A stretch of DNA of 64,000 nucleotides from Poritiphilus flavus. Lineage in GTDB: Bacteria > Bacteroidota > Bacteroidia > Flavobacteriales > Flavobacteriaceae. Shown one piece after another: positions 8,087 to 22,714 of the stretch (positions are counted from its first letter, which is position 1; each line of letters opens with the position of its first letter). A program made the translations under genes and the position numbers. Location: the NCBI RefSeq assembly GCF_009901585.1, contig NZ_WXYO01000004.1, positions 124,001 to 188,000 on the forward strand. The letters are read 5' to 3'. Under the pieces are notes generated by a model. It saw nothing but the letters and a program-made list of their open reading frames with translations, had not been told where the DNA came from and ran no database searches.

Positions 8087-8224
8087 CCCGCTACCGCCAG
8101 TCTTAGACTGGTGGTTCAAAAAACCTGGTGTTGTAATGAAGAATATTCAATAACCACGGCAGCAAAGTTGTGGTTTTGTTTTATGTAAGTTTGGAATAAC
8201 CACGAGATACAATCTCGCGGTAGC
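8087..8224. repeat. Repeat A copy 1, REP/MITE-like palindromic element
   Basis: A 138-bp element with terminal inverted repeats GCTACCGC and GCGGTAGC. Internal perfect hairpins are CCAGTC-TTA-GACTGG near the left end and CGAGAT-ACA-ATCTCG near the right end. It is nearly identical to copy 2 and carries no ORF. The structure suggests a non-autonomous element mobilised in trans, perhaps by a REP-associated Y1 transposase that is not in this window. Confidence 0.8.
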
Positions 8225-8238
8225 TTAAGAAAATGAAT

Positions 8239-8311
8239 GTTAGATGTTAAGTTTAAGTGCTAAGTTTTCCAATAAATATCAACCTAACGCTTAACACCTA
8301 AAATTTATAAC
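8239..8311. repeat. Repeat B copy 1, heptanucleotide inverted-arm element
   Basis: An AT-rich element whose left arm is built from TTAAGT-type units and whose right arm is built from the complementary CTTAACA-type units, so the transcript could fold into an imperfect hairpin. It abuts repeat A copy 2. Confidence 0.7.
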
Positions 8312-8312
8312 A

Positions 8313-8450
8313 CCCGCTACCGCCAGTCTTAGACTGGTGGTTCAAAAAACCTGGTGTTGTAATGAAGAATATTCAATAACCACGGCAGCAACGTTGTGGT
8401 TTTGTTTTATGTAAGTTTGGAATAACCACGCGATACAATCTCGCGGTAGC
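8313..8450. repeat. Repeat A copy 2
   Basis: Near-identical to copy 1 over 138 bp, same orientation. Differences include a change in the right-hand hairpin (cgcgatac instead of cgagatac) and one in the middle (aacgttg instead of aaagttg). Confidence 0.8.
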
Positions 8451-8464
8451 ATAAGAAAATGAAT

Positions 8465-8538
8465 GTTGGATGTTAAGTTTTAAGGGCTAAGTTTTCCAAT
8501 AAATGTCAACCTAACGCTTAACACCTAAAATCTATAAC
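8465..8538. repeat. Repeat B copy 2
   Basis: It has the same architecture as copy 1 (left arm gttggatgttaag, right arm cctaacgcttaacacc) and directly follows repeat A copy 2, as copy 1 follows repeat A copy 1. Confidence 0.7.
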
Positions 8539-12329: not shown

Positions 12330-14015
12330 TTAAGGTGAGTCTTTTTTTGTCTTGTTCAAAAGATATTCATGAATCCAAAACGGTTCAAATCGGTATTTCG
12401 AAAGCTTACTATCAATTGGGTCAATTGTTATTAAACCGCTTCTGTTTAGTAATGATTTAACAGTTGTGGTATAAGTAGCTCCATCCAGGTCAATACTTAC
12501 CTTTTCATTATTGTTTACTATAAACCAACCCTCATTTTCGGAAATTTCTTTTATGTTTATTTCGTTTAAGACAACCTCTTTCAGAAATTCCATATAAATC
12601 ACGCCTTCGTTAGAATCTAACATTGGCCTTAAATGCGTATCAGAATTTCTGCCAACCATTGTGTTAAACAGAATTGTTTTGATTTCATTTTCTTCGGTAT
12701 TTTGATTGATTCTGTTCTTTATGGTTCCACGGAACAGAAAATCGCTGTTTGATTGAATTTGTAACTGAAGTTTGATGAAATCATACTTATTGTATAAGTT
12801 AAAGACTTGTGTAAGAATATGATTCCGTTCGGTATCATCAATTAAACGTCCCAACTTTTCTTTTTGGTACCAATTTGCCCAATCATTAATTCTGTCTAGA
12901 ATTTGTTCACGTGTTGAGAAAATCGGTTTTTGGAGTGTTTTCTGTTCTAAACCATAAATTTTGTCAACCTTTGGATTTTTTCTGTACGTATTAGATAGAT
13001 AATTAACTAATGCTTCAGGGCGTGACAAGAATACAATTAAGTTTAAATCTGGATAAGTTCCCTTTTCGATAATATTTTCAAAGTCTTTTAAATATTTATT
13101 CATGGTTGAATCTGACACTTCATCTAAATCATCAACCATTATAACATCGGTATTGTTTTCAAATTTATATTGATGTAATATAGAGTCTAAGCTAAAAGTG
13201 TACTTATACAGATGGCCCAAAGATTTTGATTCCCCGTTTTTGGATTCTGATATTAAATCAGGTTGTTTAGTTACAATATATCCAAGAGAATCTGCAAAAC
13301 ATCTTGATTCTTGTTCCCCGCATACAAAATCTTCACGAACTTTAATTTTTCCAACCTTTTTGTCCTTAAGTTCCTGTTCTATCCATTTTTTGGTAAAATA
13401 TGATTTTCCAAATCCTGCTGGTGCAGTTACATATGCCACACCTGTGTAGTTGGGGTTTTTGGTCAAGGAGTCATTAAATTCCTTAAGAAAGGAAGTGAAA
13501 TCTGAATTTGATTTTTTTATATGATCTAAATATGAGTTGGTCTTTATGACAGTTGGTGTTTCATTAGCAATATTTCTTTGCACCTCCTTTAGAACTCGTT
13601 GATATTTAATTATATCAACTTTTACACTATTAAAGTCTAAGTTTATAATTGTCAACAGTACTACGGCTGATAACCCTAAAAAACCCAATGCCTTCAGAAC
13701 AGGGCTTAGATTCGAGTCGTCAAAAAACCGCACGTAAAGGATCAATATAATTGTTGCTAACGTTATTATCAGTACTGGTTGACTACCAGACGAAAAAAAT
13801 ACAATTACTAAATCGGCAAAAACTTCTATTAAAGCGGAATCAGGATAATTCCCTTTGAAGTTTTCCGCAAAATTTTTGATATCACTTCCAGCGCTTATTG
13901 CAGCCAATTCCTTAATTAGAAATGCTGATAGGACATAAAGTATGTGGTTTAAGTTTTTTCTTCTTAAAAACCAATCCACAATTTTATCCCAGGTGTTGTT
14001 TAAAACTCTTTTCAT
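12330..14015 (-). CDS. Membrane-anchored STAND/KAP-like P-loop NTPase
   Basis: A 561-residue NTPase with two or three hydrophobic N-terminal helices (about 23-40, 66-95, 105-126). A cytoplasmic P-loop domain follows. Walker A is APAGFGKSYF (198-207) and Walker B is VIMVDDLDEV (291-300). A sensor-like strand LNLIVFLSRPEAL follows, as in NACHT/KAP-class STAND ATPases, where DDLDE and an R-P after the fourth strand are typical. The C-terminal region (about 380-561) is helical and ends in a winged-helix-like segment. No WD, TPR or LRR repeats are seen. It is the last gene of a four-gene minus-strand unit, 24 bp after the beta-barrel gene. STAND and KAP NTPases often act as switches in bacterial conflict systems; a defence role here is inference. 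Confidence 0.72.
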   Translation of the reverse strand: MKRVLNNTWDKIVDWFLRRKNLNHILYVLSAFLIKELAAISAGSDIKNFAENFKGNYPDSALIEVFADLVIVFFSSGSQPVLIITLATIILILYVRFFDDSNLSPVLKALGFLGLSAVVLLTIINLDFNSVKVDIIKYQRVLKEVQRNIANETPTVIKTNSYLDHIKKSNSDFTSFLKEFNDSLTKNPNYTGVAYVTAPAGFGKSYFTKKWIEQELKDKKVGKIKVREDFVCGEQESRCFADSLGYIVTKQPDLISESKNGESKSLGHLYKYTFSLDSILHQYKFENNTDVIMVDDLDEVSDSTMNKYLKDFENIIEKGTYPDLNLIVFLSRPEALVNYLSNTYRKNPKVDKIYGLEQKTLQKPIFSTREQILDRINDWANWYQKEKLGRLIDDTERNHILTQVFNLYNKYDFIKLQLQIQSNSDFLFRGTIKNRINQNTEENEIKTILFNTMVGRNSDTHLRPMLDSNEGVIYMEFLKEVVLNEINIKEISENEGWFIVNNNEKVSIDLDGATYTTTVKSLLNRSGLITIDPIDSKLSKYRFEPFWIHEYLLNKTKKDSP

Positions 14016-14039
14016 CTTAACTATGGGCCAGTCCCTGAT

Positions 14040-14963
14040 TTATAAATTTATTTTTAAACTCACCGCAAAAAAGGACTGTTCTTCAAAGTTCCTTGATGGG
14101 TCATCACCATTTACATAATCGACACCGACTTTGGCTGATCTTTTTCCTTCTTGAGCTGTGAATAGGATATAATTAAAACTTGCACTGAAATAATTGTGAT
14201 CAGATTTATCAAGGCCCTCCACATTCTCTTCAATATTATATCGGTACTGCCAATCTATACTGAACTCAAATTTTTTTTCAAGCTTTTTTAGTCCGGGGAA
14301 AAGTGAAAAGTTTGCAGTTATTCGAAAATATGTACGATAGATATCTCCTTCATCGGTAATCATTTCAGTCGAAAACCTATTTTCATTTTCTAGTCCTAAA
14401 TAAGGGGAATAAACAAATTGAAATAATTTACCAAAATCAGAAATATTATTTGGTATGTAAAAGAATTCGGGATTTTTGGCTTTACCTTTAAAAAGGGGAG
14501 TGAAATAATAATTTCCTTGAAAAGAAGAAATATCCTTAGTGTTGTCCTCATTATATTTCAAGGATGCAATCAAAATAGGAGTCCATTTTTTCCTTGACAT
14601 ATCTCTAAGCTGCCACTCAGTTGCTAATCCAGTCTGAAAATTGTCCTGCTCTTTATCGACAAGGGTGTTTCGATGGTATTCCAGATAAGGAGAAAGAGTT
14701 AAACCTTCTTCTATATTATTCAAAATACTCACCCCAACAGCTGCATTCAATATCCATGATTCTTCTTTGTTCTCAGCATTTGAATATGTTACAACTGCCG
14801 GTTCAGCTTTGTCATTTTTGCTTTGGAAAGACTTTCTTAGAGTAATTCGATTAAAAAAACTATCATCTTGATCCGAATCTTGCCCTACCTTCTTAATTGA
14901 ATCCTGCCCATTCATTGTACCAAGAACAAACAAAACAGTAAATACTAAGATTGGATATTTCAT
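14040..14963 (-). CDS. Predicted outer-membrane beta-barrel protein, unknown function
   Basis: A 307-residue protein with a cleavable signal peptide (MKYPILVFTVLFVLGTMNGQ). The rest is an acidic N-terminal segment (20-70) and alternating amphipathic strands such as WILNAAVGVSIL, LTLSPYLEYHRN and FEFSIDWQYRYNI, ending in FFAVSLKINL. This ends in a hydrophobic/aromatic C-terminal strand as in outer-membrane barrels. No family is recognised. Its start overlaps the stop of the upstream 124-residue gene (ATGA, 14960-14963), so it is translationally coupled to a cytoplasmic protein, an odd pairing that argues for one envelope-spanning system. Confidence 0.7.
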   Translation of the reverse strand: MKYPILVFTVLFVLGTMNGQDSIKKVGQDSDQDDSFFNRITLRKSFQSKNDKAEPAVVTYSNAENKEESWILNAAVGVSILNNIEEGLTLSPYLEYHRNTLVDKEQDNFQTGLATEWQLRDMSRKKWTPILIASLKYNEDNTKDISSFQGNYYFTPLFKGKAKNPEFFYIPNNISDFGKLFQFVYSPYLGLENENRFSTEMITDEGDIYRTYFRITANFSLFPGLKKLEKKFEFSIDWQYRYNIEENVEGLDKSDHNYFSASFNYILFTAQEGKRSAKVGVDYVNGDDPSRNFEEQSFFAVSLKINL

Positions 14964-15334
14964 AGTTTAGACTTTACCAATTTTATACAATCTGAAACTT
15001 TATCTAATTTTTCACATTCCGCTACCGTAATAATCTTATCAGAATCTAAATCATTTACAATTCTTTGAAAATACCTTTTCAATGATTTTTTGTGATAGTT
15101 GGTAAGGCCTAAATCACTTTTTAGTTCTTGATCATCATTAATATCATCAATGTCGAATCCGCTAAGGTCTGAAAGAGCTTCATATACTTTTCGTTTAATA
15201 AAAGTGTCAGGGTCATCTTTAGAAACCACAAGTTTTACTAGTTCTTTCAAATCTTTGATTTCACTGCTTTCTACAAGTGTGCTGAATTCTTGTAGTTCAT
15301 TTTGGGTCATAGAGAGGACTATTTTTTGATTCAT
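14960..15334 (-). CDS. Small acyl-carrier-like helical protein, no pantetheine serine
   Basis: A 124-residue soluble protein. Residues 1-45 are helical. Residues 46-124 follow the acyl carrier protein pattern: a first helix (VYEALSDLSGFDIDDI), then NDDQELKSDLGL where carriers have a D-x-x-F-x-x-D-L-G-x-D-S-L motif, a second helix (KKSLKRYFQRIVNDL), and ITVAECEKLDKVSDCIKLV like the itTv-e-aidyi end. The serine that carries phosphopantetheine is replaced (GLTNYHKKSL), so it cannot be a normal carrier. A protein-interaction role is more likely. The fold assignment is my own pattern reading and should be treated as tentative. It is coupled to the beta-barrel gene by a 4-bp overlap. Confidence 0.5.
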   Translation of the reverse strand: MNQKIVLSMTQNELQEFSTLVESSEIKDLKELVKLVVSKDDPDTFIKRKVYEALSDLSGFDIDDINDDQELKSDLGLTNYHKKSLKRYFQRIVNDLDSDKIITVAECEKLDKVSDCIKLVKSKL

Positions 15335-15468
15335 AAGACTGTTTTAATGATTATCGATGTTTCAAATGATATGTCTTACAGTTAATTAATAGAACACCCA
15401 ATTAAGGGTATTTTTGGATATCCAAGTAAAACCTGGCATGTAACAATACTTGTTTATAGTTTATTCTA

Positions 15469-16407
15469 TTAAGGGGCTTTAAGAGAAATCTTTTCTTCAG
15501 TTGTTTTGTTCGGATTAACCGTAAGGATTTTTTCAGAAATCGCAACTGTTTTACTCTCTTTAATAAGATTAAAATGGAATTGATAAACTCCTTGCCTAAG
15601 CTTTAAAAAACTGGTTGAAAGTTGATGCTCTTCTACCTTCTTAACAATCGGCTTCTCTAGATCTTCCCCGCTTACGGTGATTTCGACTATTGATTTTTCG
15701 GGTCTACTAATTTGTAAAATGAGATTCCCTTTTTCCAATGAAGCTTTTTCGTCTTCTAAATCCTTTTTAAGTTTTTCTTTTAGCTCAGATTGGTATTTTT
15801 CTAAGTTGGTCTTAGCTTTTCTTAAATTGGCATCTACGTTACTTCGGAATTTCTCTAATTGCACTGTGAAGTTTGTTTTCCATTCTAAAGTCTCTTTTAT
15901 TACAATTGATTTTATTGTGTTATCAAAGTTGCTGAGTAGTGTAATTAGACTAACCTTATCCTCACTGGTTAGCTGTCCAAGATTCGCTTTGGATATAGAA
16001 TTAAGCCACTGGGCATGATATTCACTAATGGAATTCTCAATTTCTAACTGAGCCATCATATATCTTATCCAACCAGATGAATGACCAAACAGCCGATCTA
16101 TCAGGAGAACTGTACTCGCAATCATTAAACAAACATATCCAGAGGAATAAACATTGAAACATTTTCCAAAAATGCTTATATCATCATTAGGACTTTTCAG
16201 CACAATTAGAATTAAACTCATAGAAAAGGAAACCACCGCAACTGAAACCAAAACATTAGATAAGACTCCTTTTATTTTGCGATGCCTCTTGTACCAAGTA
16301 ATTTTTTCATCGACGTATTCAATAAAAAGTGTTAGGTAATTTTTGACCATCTTATCTTCAATTTGGTCAATAAACCAATCCCTTTCAGTCGTTTTGTCTT
16401 TACCCAT
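15469..16407 (-). CDS. SLATT-like 2TM protein with coiled coil and C-terminal beta domain
   Basis: A 312-residue membrane protein and probable first gene of the accessory operon. A helical segment (1-46) ending in WYKRHRKIKG is followed by TM1 (about 47-70), TM2 (about 85-104) and the conserved-looking LIDRLFGHSSGWIRYMMAQL with an amphipathic continuation ending EYHAQW. This layout matches SLATT domains, two-helix effectors thought to form membrane pores in nucleotide-signal and reverse-transcriptase defence systems. A long coiled coil (about 175-227) and a beta-rich C-terminal domain (228-312) are additions. No SMODS cyclase or SLOG sensor is nearby; a STAND-type NTPase takes that place. The gene is visibly AT-rich compared with its outer neighbours. 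Confidence 0.6.
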   Translation of the reverse strand: MGKDKTTERDWFIDQIEDKMVKNYLTLFIEYVDEKITWYKRHRKIKGVLSNVLVSVAVVSFSMSLILIVLKSPNDDISIFGKCFNVYSSGYVCLMIASTVLLIDRLFGHSSGWIRYMMAQLEIENSISEYHAQWLNSISKANLGQLTSEDKVSLITLLSNFDNTIKSIVIKETLEWKTNFTVQLEKFRSNVDANLRKAKTNLEKYQSELKEKLKKDLEDEKASLEKGNLILQISRPEKSIVEITVSGEDLEKPIVKKVEEHQLSTSFLKLRQGVYQFHFNLIKESKTVAISEKILTVNPNKTTEEKISLKAP

Positions 16408-16915: not shown

Positions 16916-17548
16916 TTAAACCTGTGGTGTTAATCGGAGATAAGGCTTAACTTCAGTGAACCCCTTCGGAAACATTCTTTCTGCTTCCTGATTGCTGACC
17001 GATGGCAATATGACGCATTCTTCCCCCTTTCTCCAGTTGGCGGGAGTGGCTAACATCTCATATTGAGTTAATTGCAAAGAATCGATTACCCGCAAAAGCT
17101 CATCGAAATTCCTCCCGGTTGACGCCGGATAGGTCAAAATCAGTTTCACTTTCTTATCAGGTGCGATAATAAATACCGATCTTACCGTCATAGTAGCAGA
17201 ATCATTGGGATGAATCATCCCATAAAGTTCAGAGACCTTACGGTCAGCATCAGCTATTAAAGGGAAATTCACCACGGCATTTTGAGTTTCTTCAATGTCT
17301 TTGATCCATTCAGTATGCGAGGAGAGTGGATCAACGCTAATAGCGGCTGTCTTGACATTTCGATTCGTAAATGCTTCTGAATAATTGGCCATGGTTCCTA
17401 GTTCTGTGGTACAAACCGGAGTAAAGTCTGCGGGATGTGAAACCAACATTCCCCAACTATCTCCAAGCCAATCGTGAAAATTAATTGGTCCCTGAGTTGT
17501 CTCAGCCGTAAAATTTGGTGCTATGTCACCTAATCTTATTGTATTCAT
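16916..17548 (-). CDS. 1-Cys (Prx6-type) peroxiredoxin
   Basis: Thiol peroxidase of 210 residues, the usual length for the Prx6 subfamily. The active site HPADFTPVCTTELG holds the peroxidatic Cys46 within PxxxT/SxxC. The conserved Arg region (MTVRSVFIIAPDKKVKLILTYP) and the long C-terminal extension (TPANWRKGEECVILPSV) are typical. No signal peptide, so it is cytoplasmic, reducing H2O2 and organic or lipid peroxides. It lies 66 bp downstream of a small lipoprotein gene on the same strand and probably shares its promoter, placing it in the candidate regulon of the two-component system at 19945-22483. Confidence 0.95.
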   Translation of the reverse strand: MNTIRLGDIAPNFTAETTQGPINFHDWLGDSWGMLVSHPADFTPVCTTELGTMANYSEAFTNRNVKTAAISVDPLSSHTEWIKDIEETQNAVVNFPLIADADRKVSELYGMIHPNDSATMTVRSVFIIAPDKKVKLILTYPASTGRNFDELLRVIDSLQLTQYEMLATPANWRKGEECVILPSVSNQEAERMFPKGFTEVKPYLRLTPQV

Positions 17549-17614: not shown

Positions 17615-17776
17615 TTACTTTGCCAATGTTTTCTGAACTTGATCTTCAGTAATATCGAGGTCAATTGCTAATTCACTATGATCACCGATTTCGTAACAAT
17701 TGTCGCCGTCTTTGTCACAAGAATACAGCAATGCACTCAATAACACTGAAACTGAAAGGACTAATACATTTTTCAT
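17615..17776 (-). CDS. Small lipoprotein, unknown
   Basis: A 53-residue protein if started at the Met at 17776; an upstream Met (17800) would place the signal too deep. The start gives MKNVLVLSVSVLLSALLYSC, a textbook lipoprotein signal with lipobox LLYSC. The mature part is acidic (DKDGDNCYEIGDHSEL, then DLDITEDQVQKTLAK) with a second Cys. No family is recognised. It heads the transcription unit that continues into the peroxiredoxin gene. Its promoter (exact -7 box at 17798-17805) and upstream 46-bp element match those of the amidohydrolase and SnoaL-like genes. Confidence 0.7.
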   Translation of the reverse strand: MKNVLVLSVSVLLSALLYSCDKDGDNCYEIGDHSELAIDLDITEDQVQKTLAK

Positions 17777-17797
17777 GATTTCTAAAATTTTATAGTG

Positions 17798-17870
17798 CAA
17801 AACTAGGACCGTGATAAGCAGAATTTTTAACCGGAAATCGGCAAAAGCCTAAATACCGGAAAACAGGTAG
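17798..17870 (-). promoter_or_regulatory. Promoter and shared 46-bp upstream element, unit 1
   Basis: On the minus strand the -7 box TAGTTTTG (17798-17805) exactly fits TAnnTTTG. Starting 19 bp further upstream is a 46-bp element (17825-17870), identical at 35 of 46 positions to the one upstream of the amidohydrolase gene. Its distal end (caggtag on the plus strand) lies exactly 65 bp from the -7 box in all three units. The position covers and extends beyond the -33 region, as expected for an activator site. Confidence 0.6.
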
Positions 17871-17918
17871 GGAAATTTTTATGCTCTGGGCTGGTTCGGC
17901 AACCCCATTTAGTTAAAC

Positions 17919-19274
17919 CTATGGTTTGAGTAGTTTTTTCCTATCCACAATTTTGCCATTCTTGATTACAGCATCGATTGTCCTTGTATTTTCCATAGCT
18001 GTTAAAGGATTCTTTCTAAGGATCAACAAGTCAGCAACCTTACCTTTTTCAACAGTGCCATAATCATTTTGAATATGAAGTTGATAGGCTCCATTCTTGG
18101 TCGCTATCATTAAGACATCTTTATTCGGGATACCAGCTTTTGAAAGGAGAAACATTTCATTGTGAATAGTATTGCCGTAATCTGCCCATGAGGTCCAGGT
18201 ATCGGAGCTTGTGGATAGTACAACTCCCGCATCATGAGCTTTTTGGACGTAACTGAAGTGATATTCGGCCATAGCCGGATTTTTACTAAATGTAATACTC
18301 TTATAGGATGAGAGCATCTGCCACATTGCCTTTAATTTTTGAGGTGCTGAATCATAAACTTCCTTTAGTTGGGTACGTTGTTCAAAAAAAGGGTCTTCAA
18401 AGTATCCGTACCTCATAGCCAAAGTAGGATCATTCGGTATGCCTTTTTTGGCCATTTCATTTAAAACCTTGCTCACATGTTTTGAGGACAAGTCCATCAT
18501 GGGATCGTTTCCATAAGGTGTGTGTACAAGGGCGTCAATCTTCATATCAATGGCTTCACGCCAGGTTGTAGCCTTAATATGGCCTGCGACCTTTAAGTTC
18601 AGTTTGTGCGCTTCGTCTATGGCGGCCTTACTGAATTCAGGTCTTAAATTGAAGAGTAGTTTTATATAATCAACTCCAAGCTTCTTCATTTCTTTTACAT
18701 AGTTTCTGGCATCCTCAACATCATGGATTTGCTCCACGATTTCCGGAAATATTAAAGGAGACTCCGACATTAGCTTGCTACAGGCCAGGATTCTTGGAGA
18801 CTTAATTTCTCCAATTCTTTCCTGTTTTTTTAAGTTAACCGCAATCTTCGGAAATCCGCCAAGCTCTCTTATATTGGTTATACCCTGATAGAGCATTGCC
18901 CTAAGATGCCATTTTGAGAGTTGTTCATCAGCAAACACTTTTATCGTTGGCACCCGGTATTTTGTTCCTATTGTATCGACAAATGCGGTAACATGACTGT
19001 GAGTGTCAAAAAGCGCGGGCATTACAAATTTGTCAGTTGCATCAATTTTGCTTAGAGCTTTATAGCCACTGAGATCTTTATTTAGATCTTCTATGGCTAT
19101 AATTCTTCCTTGATCCACAATAATGGCTTTATTATGAACAACTTCACCACTTTGAGCATCAAACAAAGTCCCTGCCTTTATTAGTAGATCTACTTCCACT
19201 ATTGGGGTTGAGGTGCAGAAAAAAAAGGACATCCCCAAAATCATGAGCATCCATATGGACAGAGTTTTTTTCAT
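17919..19274 (-). CDS. Amidohydrolase-family lipoprotein
   Basis: Metal-dependent hydrolase of 451 residues. The signal MKKTLSIWMLMILGMSFFFC ends in a Cys, so lipid anchoring is likely. The amidohydrolase barrel shows VMPALFDTHSHV (HxH metal motif, here H-S-H), a Lys in VDYIKLLFN, His in VAGHIKATTW and VHTPYGNDP, and Asp in LSTSSDTW. The flanking beta-sandwich includes AGTLFDAQSGEV and DLLILRKNPLTAMENTRTID, as in imidazolonepropionase-like and prolidase-like enzymes. The substrate is unknown. It has its own promoter with the 46-bp element shared with two neighbours. Confidence 0.88.
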   Translation of the reverse strand: MKKTLSIWMLMILGMSFFFCTSTPIVEVDLLIKAGTLFDAQSGEVVHNKAIIVDQGRIIAIEDLNKDLSGYKALSKIDATDKFVMPALFDTHSHVTAFVDTIGTKYRVPTIKVFADEQLSKWHLRAMLYQGITNIRELGGFPKIAVNLKKQERIGEIKSPRILACSKLMSESPLIFPEIVEQIHDVEDARNYVKEMKKLGVDYIKLLFNLRPEFSKAAIDEAHKLNLKVAGHIKATTWREAIDMKIDALVHTPYGNDPMMDLSSKHVSKVLNEMAKKGIPNDPTLAMRYGYFEDPFFEQRTQLKEVYDSAPQKLKAMWQMLSSYKSITFSKNPAMAEYHFSYVQKAHDAGVVLSTSSDTWTSWADYGNTIHNEMFLLSKAGIPNKDVLMIATKNGAYQLHIQNDYGTVEKGKVADLLILRKNPLTAMENTRTIDAVIKNGKIVDRKKLLKP

Positions 19275-19293
19275 GTTCTTAATAATTATAGTG

Positions 19294-19366
19294 CAAAATT
19301 AGGCTTGCGGACACCTTAAATTTTAACCTGGAATCTGCAAAAATCAGCATACCTGAAAGCAGTTAG
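19294..19366 (-). promoter_or_regulatory. Promoter and shared 46-bp upstream element, unit 2
   Basis: The -7 box TAATTTTG (19294-19301) exactly fits the consensus, and its immediate downstream sequence (gcactataat on the coding strand) resembles that of unit 1. The 46-bp element is at 19321-19366, with the same 19-bp and 65-bp spacings as unit 1. The 5' leader would be only about 10-15 nt. Confidence 0.6.
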
Positions 19367-19404
19367 GAAAACAATTGATCTGATCAAAATTAAATCTCAG
19401 GGCA

Positions 19405-19845
19405 TTATAAAGAGGACCATCCCCTGTAGAAAAGCCTGTAGTTCTCCTTATTCCTGACCCAAATATTGATGTACTTTCGCTTACTGGTGGTTTCTTTGTT
19501 TTCAACCATTTCGAAACGACCAAATTCCACCAAACTATTCCCTAGATCGGTATAGCTATCAATAGTCACGGCCCAGGAGGTGACGTCATTCTTTTCCAAA
19601 AATGATTTGATTAACTGACCGACAATATCCTTTCCAGAATAGGGTTCTCCTGATGGGGGATGGAACACCACCTCCGGATGTAACATCCTGATAAGCTCTT
19701 TGGTGTTCTCTTCCATGACGGCTCTGTGATAAGCGTCTGAAAGTGTTTTAACCAGATTGGTATGCTCCTGGCTTTCGGTTTGTGCATGAATTAAGGGGGT
19801 AATTCCCATCATGAAAATGCAGAGTGTTCTCTTGAAAGATCCCAT
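19405..19845 (-). CDS. SnoaL/DUF4440-like NTF2-fold protein, exported
   Basis: A 146-residue protein with a signal peptide (MGSFKRTLCIFMMGITPLIHAQ). The rest fits the small NTF2-like (SnoaL, DUF4440) alpha+beta barrel: a helix LVKTLSDAYHRAVMEENTKEL, then MLHPEVVFHPPSGEPYSGKDIV, and a beta-sheet ending KYINIWVRNKENYRLFYRGWSS. Such proteins are often secreted and of unknown activity. It lies directly downstream of the NarL-type regulator gene on the same strand but has its own promoter with the shared upstream element. Confidence 0.85.
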   Translation of the reverse strand: MGSFKRTLCIFMMGITPLIHAQTESQEHTNLVKTLSDAYHRAVMEENTKELIRMLHPEVVFHPPSGEPYSGKDIVGQLIKSFLEKNDVTSWAVTIDSYTDLGNSLVEFGRFEMVENKETTSKRKYINIWVRNKENYRLFYRGWSSL

Positions 19846-19857
19846 AATTTGTTTTTA

Positions 19858-19930
19858 CAAAACTAATTGCACCGAAATTAGGAGGGATCACCCAAAAAGG
19901 CCATTAGGCGAATTGGCAGAAAACAGGTAG
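19858..19930 (-). promoter_or_regulatory. Promoter and shared upstream element, unit 3
   Basis: The -7 box TAGTTTTG (19858-19865) exactly fits the consensus. The region 19885-19930 matches the unit 1 element at 29 of 46 positions, including an unbroken 11-bp distal end (aaaacaggtag on the plus strand), which again lies 65 bp from the -7 box. The predicted leader is very short (about 6 nt). Confidence 0.55.
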
Positions 19931-19944
19931 TCGGACTAATTATT

Positions 19945-20571
19945 TTAACAGTAGACTATTCCTTTACGGATAGCGTACTTTACCAGGCCAGCGGAATTTT
20001 TTAGGCCCAATTTAAGTAAGATGTTCTTGCGATGAGATTCTATGGTATGCCTGCTTAAATACAATTTTTCAGCAATTTCCTGAGTGGTGTAACCATCCGC
20101 AATAAGTTGAATGACCTCTTTTTCTCTTGGGGATATCGCCGTTGTATGTGTGTCTTCCCTTAAGTCATCCATAATCATTTTCGCAGTTTCGGGAGAATGG
20201 AATTGTCCTGTTCTATGAATGGTATCAAGAGCATTGAGTAAAGTAGTTTTTCCTACGTCCTTTGGAAGATAGCCATGAGCTCCAGCCTTTAAAATGTTCT
20301 TGATGAACTGCAGTGAAGAATGCATGGTAAGGACTAAAACTCTAACTTCTATATCTAATTGTCTTATTTCACGAATCGTATCAAAACCATCCATTTCCGG
20401 CATTTCAATATCAAGAATGAGGACATCTATAGACTCATTTTCTAGAATTTCCAAAACCTCTTTGCCATTTTTGGCTTGGGCTACGATTGAAACATTGTTG
20501 TCCTCCGATAACAAGGATACCAGCCCTTCTCTGAACACGGTATGGTCATCTGCTATTGCAATTCTGATCAT
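19945..20571 (-). CDS. NarL/LuxR-family response regulator
   Basis: DNA-binding response regulator of 208 residues. The receiver domain has IADDHTVFREG and phospho-acceptor Asp54 (LILDIEMPEMDGF), with Lys in YLPKDVGKT. The C-terminal LuxR-type HTH spans about 140-205 (SPREKEVIQLIADGYTTQEI, then LYLSRHTIESHRKNILLKL). Only 1 bp separates its start from the stop of the TPR histidine kinase, so the two form one operon and a cognate pair. The three transcription units just downstream share a 46-bp promoter element that is a good candidate for its operator. Confidence 0.95.
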   Translation of the reverse strand: MIRIAIADDHTVFREGLVSLLSEDNNVSIVAQAKNGKEVLEILENESIDVLILDIEMPEMDGFDTIREIRQLDIEVRVLVLTMHSSLQFIKNILKAGAHGYLPKDVGKTTLLNALDTIHRTGQFHSPETAKMIMDDLREDTHTTAISPREKEVIQLIADGYTTQEIAEKLYLSRHTIESHRKNILLKLGLKNSAGLVKYAIRKGIVYC

Positions 20572-20572
20572 A

Positions 20573-22483
20573 TTAAATTGGTATTTGAATGCTTATTGCG
20601 GTACCTCTGCCCTTGTTGGTATCTATATTGAAGGTTCCTTTAAGCTGTGAGACCCTGGATTTTATATTTTCGAGGCCAATGCCGGCCTGTAAGCTGTCTA
20701 TATCTATACCTACACCATTGTCCTCGACCATTAGACTAAGATATTTGCGATGTTTGTTAAGTGAAATGTCTAATTTACTGGCCTGAGCATGTTTGATTAC
20801 ATTTTGAATGGCCTCCTGAACAATTCTGAACAAATGAATTTCCTTAGTAGGATGAATGCGTTCTTCCATATTAAAGGTATAGAGCTGAGTAGCAAGTGAG
20901 GTTTTTGGCAGATGTTCTAACGTAGCGTTTATCGCCGTTACCAACCCAAATTTGACCAATTCACCAGGCATTAAGTTATGCGAAATTTGCCTTACTTGAT
21001 CTGAGGTTTCAGAAATAGTTCGAATAGATTTCTGAATGCTTGGATGCTCTTCCCTTAGTTTTTCACCGATCTCCTGTAGTACATTCTTGGTCATGGCCAA
21101 GGAACCCCCTACACTGTCATGAAGGTCTCTTGCGATTCGAGCTCTTTCAGACATTTGAGCCTCTACCATAGTTTCTATTAATTCCTTTTGCTTTCGATTT
21201 TTTAGATATTGAATGATGAGCAGAATCCCGGCACTAAGGGCTAGTGTAATACCTAATATGCTATATGACAGTCGCTTAATTCTTGTTCTTTGCTTGGAAA
21301 GTTTGTCATCGGCTATCAATTTCTGCTTAGAGAGAAATAAGATTTCCTTTTCCTTTTTCTCCGATTCGTATTTAATTTCAAGTTCACTTATATTCTTTAA
21401 ATGTTCTTGGTTGATAATACTGTCTTTCCAATGGGTATATGATTTTTGATGTAGCAGTGCGAGTGAAGGTTTGCCTATTTGTTCGTATAATTGGGACAAC
21501 CCCAAGTGATTGTCCCTTATAACATCCTTGTTGTCTAACTTTACCGCAATTGCGAGACTTTTTTTAAAATTGGCTAAAGCGGACGCAAACTCACCCTTTG
21601 CCATGTAAAGGCCAGCAAGATTATGCAACGCGCTGGTGGCGGTTGATTCATCATTGATTTCATTAGCTTTAGAAAGGCTTTTGTCGTAATAATAAAAAGC
21701 CTTGTTATAATTACCCAGTTCTTGGTACAGCACACCCAAGTTGTCGTAATTTCTTGCCAGGCCCCTTTCATCCCGCAACTCAGTCAGTAGAACATTGGAT
21801 TTTTCGTAGGCTTCAATAGAAGCATAATAGTCATGCTGATTTTTATTAATAATTCCCAGATTGCCCAGTGTAAAGGCCATCCCTCTTTTAATACCGTATT
21901 TTTCACACAAGTCAAAGGATTTGGTCATATACTTTTTGGCCTCAGGCCAATTTTCCATTTTAATATAAGTAATCCCAATGTTGTTAAACACCTTGGCTTT
22001 TCCTGCTTCTAGATTGTTAGCATCGCTGATCTTTTCGGCTCTTCTATGTGCTAAAATTGCTTCGGCATAACCACTCTTGTAATAGTGTGCGGTACCTACC
22101 ATGGAATAGAGGTCCACCAATAACTTGGGATCTAGGTGTTTCCGTAAATCTTCAACCTTATTTGCATAGTGGAATACACTGTCGTAGTTATTGGCAATCA
22201 AATGCTGTTCAACCTGAGCTAAAAGTATTCTTCCATATAGGGAATCAGACAATGTACCATTGCTAAGGGAAAGGGCTTTATCAAGGTGTAACTGAGCTAA
22301 ATCTGAATCCTGTTTTCTTAACTTCTTGTAGAGAGTTAAGTTTAAGCTGGCAACTTTTTCCGGACTTTTAGCTTTCGAGAGCGCTATTCTCAAGCTGTCC
22401 ACCTGTTCTTGACGCTGGGGTTGCACTAACTGCAGTGGTAAGCTTAACAGGGCAGCGAAGAGATAGGGAAAAAGCTGGTGCAT
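20573..22483 (-). CDS. TPR-containing membrane sensor histidine kinase (HisKA_3)
   Basis: A 636-residue kinase. An N-terminal signal sequence (MHQLFPYLFAALLSLPLQL) exports a periplasmic region of about 370 residues made of tetratricopeptide repeats (for example AKVFNNIGITYIKMENWPEA and YDNLGVLYQELGNYNKAFYY). A coiled segment, one membrane helix (about 403-424) and the cytoplasmic kinase follow. The HisKA_3 box ARIARDLHDSVGGSLA holds His455, and the HATPase_c end shows VEDNGVGIDI and GIGLENIKSR. This architecture is common in Bacteroidota and pairs with NarL-type regulators, here the next gene. An exact -7 box (TATTTTTG, 22511-22518) lies just upstream. Confidence 0.95.
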   Translation of the reverse strand: MHQLFPYLFAALLSLPLQLVQPQRQEQVDSLRIALSKAKSPEKVASLNLTLYKKLRKQDSDLAQLHLDKALSLSNGTLSDSLYGRILLAQVEQHLIANNYDSVFHYANKVEDLRKHLDPKLLVDLYSMVGTAHYYKSGYAEAILAHRRAEKISDANNLEAGKAKVFNNIGITYIKMENWPEAKKYMTKSFDLCEKYGIKRGMAFTLGNLGIINKNQHDYYASIEAYEKSNVLLTELRDERGLARNYDNLGVLYQELGNYNKAFYYYDKSLSKANEINDESTATSALHNLAGLYMAKGEFASALANFKKSLAIAVKLDNKDVIRDNHLGLSQLYEQIGKPSLALLHQKSYTHWKDSIINQEHLKNISELEIKYESEKKEKEILFLSKQKLIADDKLSKQRTRIKRLSYSILGITLALSAGILLIIQYLKNRKQKELIETMVEAQMSERARIARDLHDSVGGSLAMTKNVLQEIGEKLREEHPSIQKSIRTISETSDQVRQISHNLMPGELVKFGLVTAINATLEHLPKTSLATQLYTFNMEERIHPTKEIHLFRIVQEAIQNVIKHAQASKLDISLNKHRKYLSLMVEDNGVGIDIDSLQAGIGLENIKSRVSQLKGTFNIDTNKGRGTAISIQIPI

Positions 22484-22510: not shown

Positions 22511-22518
22511 CAAAAATA
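22511..22518 (-). promoter_or_regulatory. -7 box of the two-component operon
   Basis: TATTTTTG on the minus strand fits TAnnTTTG exactly and lies 28 bp upstream of the histidine kinase start. The 46-bp element of the neighbouring units is absent at the matching position (22538-22583), so the operon itself seems not to be under the same control. Confidence 0.45.
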
Positions 22519-22714
22519 GCTACTAGGAAAGTGAGGCTTTTACAAAACTGTAGCGACCAATGGAGATGCCGTATAAATGGTTTAAAATAATGTATGGATG
22601 ACATTTAGACCCGTATAATTTTTCCAATCCACTTTAGACTTAAGCTTAATCATGGACTTAAACCTCCCCAGGATTGCCATTGCTCTGCCGAGTCGTCCTG
22701 ATGGTGTTTATACA

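Follow-up and report, generated by a model that had tools for sequence, protein, structure and literature searches.

Genes and repeated element at the locus

Along the direction of transcription, the Poritiphilus flavus locus described here encodes a TPR-histidine kinase, a NarL-type regulator, a SnoaL/DUF4440 protein, an amidohydrolase, a 53-aa lipoprotein and a peroxiredoxin. A 46-bp element occurs three times among these genes, each copy preceding one of three neighbouring transcription units, and all of these features lie on the minus strand. They are listed below in coordinates of the window, by which we mean the whole 64,000-nucleotide stretch of DNA that was analysed.

22511..22582 (-), possible degenerate copy of the element in the kinase-regulator promoter; three skeleton mismatches, in phase with TATTTTTG
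20573..22483 (-), histidine kinase with a TPR sensor region, HisKA_3 and HATPase_c (domain search)
19945..20571 (-), NarL/FixJ-type response regulator (Response_reg + GerE), proposed binder of the element (domain search)
19885..19930 (-), unit 3 candidate operator element, before the SnoaL/DUF4440 gene (alignment; the orthologous promoter in Flagellimonas hymeniacidonis has the element)
19858..19865 (-), unit 3 -7 box TAGTTTTG (sequence)
19405..19845 (-), SnoaL-like/DUF4440 protein with a signal-peptide-like start (domain search)
19321..19366 (-), unit 2 candidate operator element, before the amidohydrolase gene (alignment)
19294..19301 (-), unit 2 -7 box TAATTTTG (sequence)
17919..19274 (-), amidohydrolase gene (domain search)
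17825..17870 (-), unit 1 candidate operator element, 46 bp, before the lipoprotein-peroxiredoxin operon (alignment, also with the orthologous promoter of an uncultured relative)
17798..17805 (-), unit 1 -7 box TAGTTTTG, with the predicted +1 an A at 17793 (sequence; phase kept in eight close sites)
17615..17776 (-), small lipoprotein, 53 aa; its orthologues in both close relatives likewise start directly behind the element (comparison)
16916..17548 (-), peroxiredoxin (AhpC-TSA, 1-Cys C-terminal domain), second gene of the unit 1 operon (domains)

The regulator belongs to the NarL/FixJ (LuxR-type) class by its domains, a receiver (PF00072, E 3e-30) followed by a GerE/LuxR helix-turn-helix (PF00196, E 4e-17), both above cut-off, and its nearest solved structures include NarL (1a04), VraR and DesR. 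Immediately upstream of it is encoded the HisKA_3 kinase (PF07730, E 1e-10; PF02518, E 5e-14). A genome-contig search for relatives of the amidohydrolase returned nothing, and because 299 genomes of the family hold no close relative of it, the target of unit 2 is lineage-specific. Elsewhere in the window, positions 12330-16407 hold a cluster encoding a 561-aa protein with a Walker-A-like motif, a SLATT_2 2TM effector-domain protein and a 124-aa DUF7599-like protein. A defence or conflict cassette is a possible interpretation of this cluster, for which, however, PADLOC gave only one marginal match (SduA, E 0.004).

A sequence-only reading of the window had placed three promoter units at the locus, and all were found again, at 17870-17798, 19366-19294 and 19930-19858 on the minus strand. 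Read 5' to 3', the units open with CTAMCTG and close with an exact TAnnTTTG box (TAGTTTTG in units 1 and 3, TAATTTTG in unit 2), and the distance from the start of the element to the start of the box is 65 bp in all three, as had been claimed. Recomputed over the first 46 bp, the identities came to the same values as before for units 1 and 2 (35/46) and units 1 and 3 (29/46); units 2 and 3 agree at 22/46, and the expectation from composition only is about 13.5/46. When the 43 TAnnTTTG sites of the window were compared in the same register, one other pair exceeded 22/46, and this was an unrelated tandem repeat at ~8.2-8.4 kb. This repeat (window ~8185-8490, plus strand) has two copies ending in a TAAGTTTG box, which are identical at 45/46 bases and lie 226 bp apart.

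The sole return of a blastn search against the whole genome was the unit 1/unit 2 pair. A genome-wide motif scan, which the earlier reading had proposed and which was run with a profile of all eight known sites, found only the same three sites (E 5e-20, 4e-17 and 2e-16), with the next match at 1e-3. By blastn and this profile, the 5-Mb genome holds no other clear copy of the element. The fourth profile match, C10:606623 (E 0.001), was rejected: it has five mismatches to the skeleton defined below, and its 3-kb locus is without a relative of the regulator.

Conservation of the element beside kinase-regulator pairs

A kinase search of 299 family genomes returned one close orthologue, in G120 (52%), and a distant one in G049 (33%). 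Scanning genomes of 84,980 species with the kinase alignment added Flagellimonas hymeniacidonis (68%; locus L016) and recovered the G120 record again (L017). The G120 locus, L014, is that of an uncultured member of the Flavobacteriaceae, and the genera of P. flavus (G000) and G120 are represented by one genome apiece. Both close-orthologue genomes carry the element beside the kinase-regulator pair. In L014, which has one copy, the kinase is followed by the regulator, the element, the small lipoprotein and the peroxiredoxin, the last being 76% identical to its orthologue in the same place in P. flavus; unit 1 and the orthologous L014 promoter are 86.5% identical across 52 bp (blastn E 3e-8). 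The four copies in L016 match a profile of the window sites and G120 with E-values of 1.5e-14 to 2.6e-5, and they precede genes for a lipoprotein, a SnoaL protein, a 197-aa lipoprotein and a 166-aa Cache-domain lipoprotein. The orthologous lipoprotein-peroxiredoxin and SnoaL promoters are among the element-bearing sites in these relatives.

The eight close sites (three in the window, one in L014 and four in L016) align without gaps and keep the 65-bp phase in every case, with a mean pairwise identity of 0.65 in the element, 0.32 in the 19-bp linker and 0.86 in the box. The earlier reading had made its proposal depend on conservation in related genomes, and there the element is kept, in exact phase, in two other genera at the orthologous kinase/regulator pair. 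Across 397 family genomes the eight-site profile scored strongly only in G000 and G120, the weak matches (~16-25 bits) in the others of the 73 genomes with a match being counted as noise, and a regulator search in a comparable sample of equal size returned G000, G120 and, more distantly, G049. The strong element, present in three genomes altogether, is thus restricted within the family sample to the two of 397 genomes with close regulator orthologues, a co-occurrence that rests on few independent events and involves linked genes, which can transfer jointly.

The alignment reduces to a skeleton, TACC-N8-GSYA-N21-GGKKA-N22-TAnnTTTG, to which all eight close sites have no or one mismatch. In G049, the 163 bp behind a 48% identical regulator hold a two-mismatch match that leads into a lipoprotein-like gene and was equalled in 0 of 2000 dinucleotide shuffles. 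The G049 site itself (L015 9411-9483) comprises TACCCTTTATAAGGTA and CCCTTTTTAAGGG, both of them clear inverted repeats, and its TAACTTTA box is in phase. A family-wide scan permitting up to one mismatch found exact matches only in G000 and G120 and ten one-mismatch matches outside them, versus four for a backward control. Most of the ten fall within long reading frames, and several are apparently one conserved coding family. Among the three outside long frames is a match in G143 (within L110 6558-9171), which is intergenic, with a TPR-HisKA_3 kinase/NarL pair (its regulator 45% identical) on one side and, on the other, the gene for a Por-secretion-tail protein, towards which it reads. We put the chance of such a neighbour for this match at <1%, a rough estimate that was reasoned rather than computed, and the arrangement suggests the same operator logic with another target. 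The product of the neighbouring gene is a type IX-secreted repeat protein. The reduced skeleton is thus found beside two more distant TPR-kinase/NarL pairs, those of G049 and G143.

The promoter of the kinase-regulator pair itself had been described as lacking the element. It has no strong copy, but the description is doubtful in that a skeleton with three mismatches is present in exact phase (AACC, GGCA, TTGTA and TATTTTTG). This copy is one of seven further matches with two or three mismatches in 5 Mb, for which the backward control gave 21, and the orthologous kinases have no such copy upstream. It could act as a weak site conferring weak autoregulation, or it may be due to chance.

Promoter layout and a candidate operator

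In Flavobacterium psychrophilum the box has been mapped to -12 to -5 relative to the start (PMC9723704), so the expected start is the fifth base after the box. This base, predicted from the sequence to be +1, is an A in 8/8 close sites, and the -7 box is an exact TAnnTTTG in all eight. A -33 TTTG, searched for at element positions 39-49, is absent from every one of them. With the box at -12 to -5, the element halves TACC...GSYA and TGSC...GGKTA have their midpoints near -68 and -42; placed there without a -33 TTTG, they have what is, judged by sequence, the layout of an activator-dependent promoter. Given the A at the predicted start and the lack of a -33 TTTG in the eight close sites, activation from ~-68 and -42 is likely. 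A scan for E. coli-type sigma-70 promoters found nothing above shuffles, as is expected for Bacteroidota.

TACC and GGTA half-sites recur among the sites. They form TACC-N8-GGTA (16 bp) in unit 1, in the F. hymeniacidonis site Fh_lipo and in G049 and G143, and GCCA stands in place of GGTA at five of ten sites. The 7-2-7 consensus of NarL is made of TACYYMT heptamers, with the outer bases of which TACC-N8-GGTA is compatible. A NarL-like 7-2-7 palindrome found no statistical support and is not asserted, the symmetry of the eight sites being no higher than in column-permuted controls (P 0.80 with 8-bp arms and 0.095 across the entire element), and the dimer geometry proposed below is consequently a guess.

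We consider it probable that the adjacent NarL-type regulator (19945-20571) uses the 46-bp element as its operator and would through it activate the lipoprotein-peroxiredoxin, amidohydrolase and SnoaL-like genes. The TPR-domain histidine kinase (20573-22483) would presumably phosphorylate this regulator, and two regulator dimers, side by side on the element halves at ~-68 and ~-42, would then recruit RNA polymerase to a promoter having a -7 box only and so turn on all three transcription units. Binding by this particular regulator, activation rather than repression and the arrangement of the dimers are all elements that we infer. The operator candidacy, which the earlier reading had put forward, gains support from the cross-genus conservation, the phase and the absence of strong copies from sampled genomes of the family without the pair.

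There is a modest chance that the regulator binds the element but represses, or both activates and represses, by occluding RNA polymerase, since NarL-type regulators can generally act in either mode and the proximal block, which stops 22 bp short of the -7 box, reaches the -33 region. All of the element nevertheless sits upstream of the -7 box, and the -33 region is without TTTG, as expected of activator-dependent promoters. In E. coli, the ogt promoter is under NarL activation through tandem 7-2-7 sites, positioned at -44.5 and -77.5 (PMC7419079). It seems to us improbable that a different transcription factor binds the element, with the two-component system uninvolved or merely another target, even though the kinase promoter has only the three-mismatch copy and orthologues have not kept it. 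The element tracks the kinase-regulator pair in three genera and its skeleton recurs at two more distant pairs; the P. flavus genome has no further strong copy, and such copies are missing from the sampled family genomes without the pair. Nor do the ORF lists of the L014 and L016 loci reveal any further evident regulator gene common to both.

The resemblance between units 1 and 2 extends across 96 bp, leader included (71%), and in the element itself unit 2 resembles unit 1 most (35/46), so that recruitment of a promoter copy by the amidohydrolase is plausible. Nevertheless, we regard it as highly improbable that the similarity is a mere remnant of promoter-region duplication, devoid of regulatory function, with unit 2 having been copied from unit 1. 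What the genera have kept is mainly the element (0.65) and the box (0.86), whereas the 19-bp linker is near background (0.32) and yet constant in length, and the unit 3, Fh_197 and Fh_166 sites have diverged but remain in phase.

Known systems and significance

By architecture, the closest characterised relative is FimS/FimR of Porphyromonas gingivalis, another member of the Bacteroidota, in which a periplasmic TPR sensor kinase is paired with a response regulator, as it is here, and the signal of the kinase is unknown (PMC11053733). FimR binds the mfa1 promoter and activates mfa1; the paper on this binding uses neither "motif" nor "palindrom" and so offers no operator for comparison (PMC1974823). 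Its targets are fimbriae, unlike the lipoprotein, peroxiredoxin, amidohydrolase and SnoaL genes of this locus. The kinase here is not FimS, the NCBIfam FimS model matching residues 83-596 (E 1e-18) at 66.8 bits, below its cut-off of 600. A resemblance to E. coli NarX/NarL at ogt lies in the two regulator sites, here predicted, upstream of a single promoter, and NarL can also activate from -67.5 (PMC7419079). Unlike at ogt, however, the sites here are not uniformly palindromic and are spaced by ~26 bp rather than 33, and the promoter is of the Bacteroidota sigma-A type with a -7 box and has no nitrate link.

The best NCBIfam matches are to MctS/MctR of rhizobia (regulator E 2e-48, kinase E 2e-39), both far below cut-off. 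In contrast to MctS, the kinase matches only in its catalytic half (residues 425-635), its sensor being the TPR region, and the target genes are other than those of MctS/MctR. The Cache-domain lipoprotein, encoded at the locus in both relatives (L016 5588-6088, minus strand; L014 12467-13024, plus strand), is weakly matched by the model of the MctS kinase (E 4e-5), and in L016 its gene has a copy of the element to itself. A possible role for this lipoprotein is to assist the TPR-kinase as an accessory ligand-binding protein.

The literature searched held no defined operator for a TPR-domain kinase/NarL-type pair in Bacteroidota. The proposed operator and regulon are new, though of a kind already known. 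The candidate targets, namely the lipoprotein with the peroxiredoxin, the SnoaL-like protein, the amidohydrolase and, in a relative, also the Cache-domain lipoprotein and another lipoprotein, would make up a small regulon with envelope and redox functions, and the conserved, phased element provides a testable operator and a reporter for finding the signal of such a TPR-kinase/NarL-type pair. A broader idea, which we advance tentatively and hold to be possible but doubtful, is that the skeleton represents a general operator grammar of TPR-kinase/NarL-type systems across the Flavobacteriaceae, each pair acting on adjacent envelope-protein genes via paired sites held at a fixed phase to a promoter with a -7 box only. 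If this were true, the targets of many uncharacterised TPR-kinase/NarL-type systems would become readable from sequence.
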